From: Halobaculum saliterrae
GTDB taxonomy: Archaea; Halobacteriota; Halobacteria; Halobacteriales; Haloferacaceae
DNA length: 64,000 nt
NCBI RefSeq assembly: GCF_009831625.1
Contig: NZ_WUUS01000004.1
Span: 263,743 to 327,742, forward strand
Direction of reading: 5' to 3'
A program made the translations under genes and the position numbers. Positions 49,044-49,989 of this stretch are shown in pieces; position 1 is the stretch's first letter; each line of letters begins with the position of its first letter. The notes under the pieces were generated by a model. That model was not told where the DNA came from. It was given only the letters and a program-made list of their open reading frames with translations, and did not search any database.

Positions 49044-49098
49044 GTGGGTCGGACCGACCGCCGACTCCGACCGGCGAATCGCTCCGCCGATCGGAGCC

Positions 49099-49128
49099 GT
49101 TATTAACGGCAATCGGTGCGTTAGTAAC
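49099..49128. promoter_or_regulatory. Paired 9-bp palindromes in front of the ZIP gene
   Basis: GTTATTAAC (49099-49107) and GTTAGTAAC (49120-49128) are each palindromic (GTTA-N-TAAC) and 21 nt apart, two helical turns, with the second touching the ATG at 49129. This is the layout of a dimeric repressor operator, and the downstream gene encodes a metal transporter, so metalloregulation is plausible. Confidence 0.6.
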
Positions 49129-49989
49129 ATGGCCGACGTGACTGCCGACGGGACCGAGCGTCGCCGGACGACTCGGACCCGGCTGATCGGCGCCGCGAGC
49201 ACGGCGGCGCTCGTGGCCGCGACCGCGTACGCGCTCGCGACTGGGCGGACGAAGCTGTTCGGGATCGCGTGGATCGCGTTCGGGGCGATGGCGGTCGCCG
49301 GGTGGGTCGCCGGGCGGACCGACGACACGCACGCCGGGACGCTCGTGTGGGGCTACGGGCTCGCCGCGGGCGCAATGATCACCAGCGCGGCCGTCTTCCT
49401 CCTCCCGCAGGCGATCGGCCAGCACCCGGCCTACGGCGGGTTCGGCGTCGCGCTCGGGCTGCTCGTGGGGTACGGCGCACACACGCTCGGGCACCGTCTC
49501 TCGCACATGGACCTCCCGCTGGACCGATCGCTGGCGGAACTGACCGCCCACGCCGTGAGCGCCGGCGCGATCATCGGGATCATCTACGGCAACTTGCCGG
49601 ACCTCGGGCTGCTGCTTGGGCTGTCGATCATCTCGCACAAGGGGCCGGCCGGCTACGCGGCCGTCCGTCGGTTCTCCGGCGACGGTGGCGACTGGACGGC
49701 GATCCTGTTGCCGGCGGCGGGCGTCGGCGTCGCCGCGATCGCCTCGTCGCTGTTCGCGCTGCCCGCCTCGGCCGCGATACGTGGCGTCGTCTTCGGGTTC
49801 GCCACCGGCGTGTTTCTCCACGTCGCGATGGACTTCCTCCCGGAGTGTGAGATCGGCAGCGAGGTCCACGACTCGCTGAGCCACGACGGCGACGCTCACG
49901 CCCTGTTGGACCGCCTCCGCGTCCACGCCGTCGCCAGCACCGCGCTCGGCGGACTGGCGGTGTTCGTCGGCTGGCTGGTCGTCGCCTGA
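49129..49989 (+). CDS. ZIP-family metal transporter
   Basis: 286 residues, about eight transmembrane helices. Family marks: the helix with HAVSAGAIIGIIYGNLPDLG, SIISHKGPAGYAAVRRF, and GFATGVFLHVAMDFLPECE, giving the His/Glu metal sites of ZIP transporters. It should import zinc, manganese or iron. The short histidine-rich loop between helices is modest. The tandem palindromes before the start suggest metal-dependent control. Confidence 0.85.
   Translation: MADVTADGTERRRTTRTRLIGAASTAALVAATAYALATGRTKLFGIAWIAFGAMAVAGWVAGRTDDTHAGTLVWGYGLAAGAMITSAAVFLLPQAIGQHPAYGGFGVALGLLVGYGAHTLGHRLSHMDLPLDRSLAELTAHAVSAGAIIGIIYGNLPDLGLLLGLSIISHKGPAGYAAVRRFSGDGGDWTAILLPAAGVGVAAIASSLFALPASAAIRGVVFGFATGVFLHVAMDFLPECEIGSEVHDSLSHDGDAHALLDRLRVHAVASTALGGLAVFVGWLVVA

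Follow-up and report, generated by a model that had tools for sequence, protein, structure and literature searches.

Two palindromes before a haloarchaeal ZIP-family gene as a candidate metal-uptake operator, most likely for zinc, with a NikR-family protein as putative binder

The window, that is the whole 64-kb stretch of Halobaculum saliterrae DNA analysed here, carries two palindromes, GTTATTAAC and GTTAGTAAC, each composed of 4-bp arms and one centre base, with their starts 21 bp apart, 12 bp between them and the ATG of an 861-nt open reading frame directly 3′. The features at the locus are:

49088..49093, + strand: CGATCG, which we take to be a BRE-like stretch adjoining the TATA box; cgA-C-g recurs among the listed orthologs in the 12 nt 5′ of the left half
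49099..49107, + strand: left half-site GTTATTAAC, which probably serves as TATA box (TTATTAA) of the ZIP promoter as well and has its centre 26 nt 5′ of the ATG
49120..49128, + strand: right half-site GTTAGTAAC, its last base being the one before the ATG
49099..49128, + strand: the complete 30-bp putative paired operator, 21 bp or two helical turns from centre to centre
49129..49989, + strand: gene for a divergent ZIP-family metal transporter of 286 aa, identified by the Pfam Zip matches of orthologs and a fold search, with a probably leaderless transcript as judged from the position of the TATA box

The designation of the open reading frame as a ZIP gene in the initial annotation holds by way of orthologs and fold. 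The protein itself (P0001) scores 8.6 bits against Pfam Zip, far below the cut-off of 35.1, and Pfam and NCBIfam return no family for it at a cut-off of 0.001 or 1; Pfam Zip is matched by 11 of 18 orthologs at E<=0.1 (best 3.9e-7), a profile of the 18 orthologs finds no ZIP match among PDB sequences, and a fold search with the predicted structure (mean pLDDT 77.7) has bacterial ZIP transporters in all ten top places among PDB entries. On the strength of the modelled fold, the product is thus taken to be a divergent ZIP transporter, whose closest named orthologs are those of Halobaculum gomorrense (83% identity) and H. litoreum (80%). Fodinibius and Aliifodinibius (L080, L082), both bacteria, have orthologs of 46-48% identity that lack a good pair upstream, a distribution which suggests gene transfer between the domains. 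Among 80 ortholog loci no NikR gene lies beside the ZIP gene, and visual inspection of the commonest neighbours turned up no recognisable regulator.

That two 9-bp palindromes stand 21 nt apart and end at the start codon, as first noted for this locus, is confirmed: the coordinates match, the pair is unique genome-wide and it is conserved at ZIP orthologs. The window has two matches to the pattern GTTANTAAC, and 100 dinucleotide shuffles give none; throughout the genome (3.78 Mb) lone GTTANTAAC sites are no commoner than chance, with 8 places versus 10 for a reversed-pattern control, while a GTTANTAAC pair with 8-16 bp separation is found once, at 49099-49128, versus none in the control. The layout of TATA box plus GTTNNNAAC, at zero mismatches, likewise has just one occurrence genome-wide. 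Two of the six other GTTANTAAC sites, L007 1501-1509 (G000:C4:350675) and L008 1501-1509 (G000:C12:90035), lie 27 and 85 nt upstream of the predicted starts of genes with CASC/CPSC motifs, presumably heavy-metal P-type ATPase-like genes, and a strict form of the pair in L294 likewise precedes a gene of this kind; the operator may also serve exporters.

Conservation was assessed in 81 ZIP upstream regions, consisting of the best 80 of 85 relatives and the window, with 810 control regions from the same loci. At a spacing of exactly 21 bp, 52 of the 81 ZIP regions versus none of the 810 controls carry the pair with <=3/16 mismatches, and 68 versus none with <=4/16; when the spacing was left free between 10 and 35 bp, 21 was best in 56.8 of the 81 regions (ties shared), the control being flat. 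The absence of the pair from orthologous upstream regions, which the initial annotation had named as grounds for refutation, is thereby not what is found, and chance as the origin of the pair is ruled out by these counts together with its uniqueness in the genome. The left half is conserved among ZIP orthologs as [GC]TTATTAA[CT] and the right half has the consensus GTTNNNAAC, and the two halves keep a constant distance from each other, whereas the position of the ATG ranges from +30 to about +34. Two consecutive pairs, offset by 39 bp, are present in the ZIP promoter of Halobonum tyrrellensis (L021 2947-3015), suggesting a duplicated operator.

The element extends beyond ZIP genes. The form TTAWTAA-N13-GTTNNNAAC has 36 places in 148 genomes of the family versus 9 for the reversed control (hand count), and among the 29 places examined (L096-L124) 23 precede a ZIP gene, the other six including ZnuA-like genes (L112, L119) and a His-rich lipoprotein gene (L113). 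The genome-wide search for further pairs proposed earlier finds the exact pair nowhere else in this genome and a 3-mismatch site (G000:C6:234476-234505) before its own znuABC. A scoring matrix built from 42 ZIP sites only, and hence blind to znu, reaches the cut-off of >=18 before 24 of 30 unique ZnuA loci selected by protein, the own znuABC included, and has 9 matches in 420,512 outside positions; column-permuted matrices give a mean of 0.8 and a maximum of 6 on 38 ZnuA regions. Those 38 became 30 by dropping five repeats (L216=L157, L217=L158, L219=L160, L221=L162, L222=L163) and L126-L128, which had been found through their site; L142, scored at 18.8 in the comparison of His content, was left out of the 30-locus count. 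The spacing of 21 bp holds in both the ZIP and the ZnuA set.

Sorting the ZnuA genes by His content separates two groups. With His-rich defined as 5 His in 70 residues, a threshold of our own choosing, 36 of 37 His-rich (zinc-type) ZnuA genes are positive for the pair, the sole miss (L238) being the same gene as in L127, whose site scored 28.7, and the pair is found at 3 of 10 His-poor paralogs. Five of these ten, including the second ZnuA of this genome (L224), are preceded by TTAGA-N4-TCTAA or a close variant, a palindrome of the TTAG...CTAA kind which we take to be DtxR-like (MntR-type). Since the pair goes with His-rich ZnuA and a different palindrome with the His-poor paralogs, the element is most likely a metal-uptake operator for zinc, the metal being deduced from the target genes.

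The strict palindromic form TTATTA-N16-TAATAA was found in 79 of 243 genomes of the order, with 95 forward versus 27 reversed-control places among the matches listed (hand counts). From at least about 95 places, 70 distinct strict sites were classified: 36 are at ZnuA, 6 at ZIP and 1 at a NikR paralog, and 27 lie elsewhere, some of which surely arise by chance. The latter include seven NMT1-like substrate-binding proteins, an assignment made on one scanned representative, one COG0523 GTPase and one CbiM; COG0523 genes lie before or beside strict sites in L311 and L321. By sequence match, then, the same element with its 21-bp period precedes ZIP and znuABC and, in other haloarchaea, also COG0523 GTPase, His-rich lipoprotein and NikR-family genes, a recurrence which lends support to the metal-responsive repressor site suggested at the outset. 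The NMT1-like genes have the strict pair directly 5′ (L268, L269, L270, L271, L272, L282, L298) with a permease downstream where seen, and possibly add to the regulon another importer of metals or metallophores. Asp/His-rich lipoproteins with good pairs upstream are encoded in L128, L225, L267, L300, L317, L318 and L319, several of them adjoining znu operons; a Pfam scan of one of them (P0012, L317) gives no match. A second, weaker pair is situated about 31 bp away in several znu promoters (L136, L137, L138, L143, L162).

At the ZIP gene the left copy overlaps the TATA box, a point absent from the initial annotation, and comparison of the promoters distinguishes two layouts. In the first, seen in ZIP promoters and some dozen znu promoters, the ATG is at about +30-36 and the left half serves as TATA box, with the right half covering the probable start of the leaderless message; in the remaining znu promoters the pair resides wholly upstream of a separate CTTTTA/CTTATA box and the ATG is at about +60. 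As the pair is the constant part of both layouts, it behaves as an independent protein-binding unit, apparently compatible with a position either over the TATA box or 5′ of it. The znuA1 transcript of Haloferax volcanii has been mapped to a start 4 nt 5′ of the start codon (PMC8155600).

As for the protein that might bind the pair, a NikR-family protein is most likely the best candidate, considering the layout of its own promoter, its adjacency to znu and the geometry published for NikR. NikR1 of this genome (P0003, 139 aa) has RHH_1 and NikR_C domains, both above cut-off, and its closest PDB match is the nickel-responsive regulator 2bj1 (E=3.6e-20); against curated models it scores 84.6 with NF002815 (cut-off 83 bits), 88.6 with NF003381 (105) and 71 with TIGR02793 (175.45). 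The second NikR-like gene of the genome, P0004, is divergent from a nickel/cobalt transporter gene presumably of the NicO/RcnA-like type (L133 5405-5812, 5905-6858), an arrangement as expected of a true nickel sensor.

Of the 30 NikR1 loci listed, 22 have TTAWTAY immediately at the gene start, versus 4 of 862 other genes, and half-sites 21-22 bp apart are present in 20.3 of the 30 NikR1 promoters listed (ties shared), with few NikR1 promoters reaching 18 with the 21-bp ZIP matrix. A matrix scan of the NikR rows, in which the same gene was repeated and the control was mixed with ZIP/znu-divergent genes and site-fetched loci, contributes none of its totals. No GTTNNNAAC was found near either NikR gene of this genome, the NikR1 promoter having the related TTAATAC form in its place. 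NikR1 adjoins znuABC in L127, L199 and L212, the latter two belonging to one genus. When every NikR-family gene is counted, one lies within 13 kb of a ZnuA gene, a limit set after the data were seen, in 8 of 40 genomes versus about 1.2 expected; two of the eight (G168, G196) concern a distant NikR, 25-26% identical, and may be nickel-related, one neighbour in G196 being a gene we take to be urease-like, and in L220, a distant-NikR case near znu, the matrix score upstream of the NikR gene is 11.4.

Bacterial NikR signals, predicted or known, are given in PMC545781 as GTATGAT-N13/14-ATCATAC and GTGTTAC-N13/14-GTAACAC, from which we compute a centre spacing of 20-21 bp. The pair has this geometry, with two half-sites whose centres are about two helical turns apart before a metal importer, and the strict haloarchaeal sites form an inverted repeat of 28-30 bp as bacterial NikR operators do. 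Differences are that the half-sites are AT-rich (GTTATTAAC/GTTAGTAAC) and each nearly palindromic alone, that the targets are ZIP and ZnuABC, and that the site lies over an archaeal TATA box and start. At the pair, no GTATGA- or GTGTTAC-like half-site is present, the half-site being GTTATTAAC-like, and given this sequence the site is not classed as a NikR box; NikR half-sites vary between bacterial groups according to PMC545781, so that the mismatch alone does not exclude NikR.

On balance, we consider it somewhat probable that the pair is one 30-bp haloarchaeal metal-uptake operator, most likely for zinc, bound by a candidate NikR-family repressor; binding, metal and direction of regulation are what we infer from comparing sequences. 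In the proposed mechanism a metal-loaded NikR-family tetramer, in this genome NikR1 (G000:C4:22003-22419), would bind the 30-bp pair, its two ribbon-helix-helix dimers occupying one half-site apiece on the same face of the DNA at a distance of two turns. Bound at the ZIP gene, the repressor would sit over both TATA box and transcription start and so exclude TBP/TFB and RNA polymerase, and upon metal shortage it would release and the importers would be made.

The same operator might instead be bound by another haloarchaeal regulator, the links to NikR being coincidental, which we judge unlikely though worth weighing. NikR1 is present in 55 of 59 genomes of the order, and in 44 of 44 good ones, and being near-universal it cannot be singled out by co-occurrence; its own promoter has mostly a spacing of 22 bp versus 21, and it is next door in only 3 of 24 clustered znu neighbourhoods. 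Against this, NikR is by eye the sole regulator that recurs among these neighbourhoods, a NikR paralog divergent from a COG0523 gene (L321) is the one recognised case of a regulator gene with a strict site at its start, and the geometry of the pair fits published NikR sites.

Somewhat less plausible still is a NikR-type operator responding to nickel or cobalt, the importers being broad-range or nickel importers. The four positions which we take to be the NikR nickel ligands are all present in NikR1, so that it may still read nickel, as membership in the NikR family would also favour; CbiM-type and NMT1-like importers have strict sites as well, and the strict site of L321 is in a cluster with a gene presumably NicO/RcnA-like. 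The core targets, His-rich ZnuA (36/37) and ZIP, argue against nickel or cobalt, and COG0523 genes, which are classic Zur targets, point away from these metals too. In Haloferax volcanii, moreover, loss of the sRNA s479 raised znuC1 and impaired growth substantially only when zinc was high (PMC8155600).

Transcript data from Halobacterium salinarum R1 bear on the direction of regulation if its genes are taken as orthologs of those discussed here: as reported in PMC6305349, qRT-PCR found znuC 18.3-fold and the ZIP gene 3.6-fold up under toxic zinc, the opposite direction to zinc repression, 38-fold and 7.3-fold up under nickel, and changed by -4.2 and -19.2 under Cu. That znuC and the ZIP gene move together in three treatments fits co-regulation; the rise under zinc does not fit simple zinc repression, on which toxic doses may not report.

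A DtxR/SirR-type regulator, the example put forward in the initial annotation, would fit a metal transporter as target, and in Halobacterium such an ABC operon is, according to a review (PMC3600143), repressed by SirR in a Mn-dependent manner, which likewise makes for a repressor site at a metal ABC importer. We hold this reading to be very improbable: the haloarchaeal DtxR-like element is a single TTAGA-N4-TCTAA palindrome, a different motif at His-poor ZnuA paralogs without the pair, and the 64-kb window contains no copy of it with up to one mismatch. That the two copies are simply a core promoter, TATA box plus start-site element without a regulator, would account for the left copy at the expected TATA position and the right copy at the start, but is scarcely credible given that the zero-mismatch layout occurs only once in the genome and given the second promoter layout, in which many znu promoters have the same pair wholly upstream of a separate TATA box.

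Bacterial Zur regulons contain znuABC, ZIP and COG0523 genes, and the target set found here resembles them. The operator differs in having two half-sites 21 bp apart, as opposed to the one compact palindrome of bacterial Zur boxes given in PMC545781, and the candidate regulator is of the NikR and not of the Fur family. In the open literature, as covered by titles and the beginnings of abstracts, no haloarchaeal zinc-uptake operator or regulator and no zinc role for NikR was found.

More generally, we see an even chance that the haloarchaeal NikR family is a general zinc-uptake regulator, near-universal and autoregulated, which in place of Zur would shut ZIP, ZnuABC, COG0523 and His-rich lipoprotein genes through an operator of two half-sites 21 bp apart, at many promoters over the TATA box and start. 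The element and its candidate regulator together constitute a predicted regulon in a group that is genetically tractable (Haloferax volcanii), and, if true, this would be a metal-sensor family that has switched its metal and, in archaea, an operator serving at the same time as TATA box.
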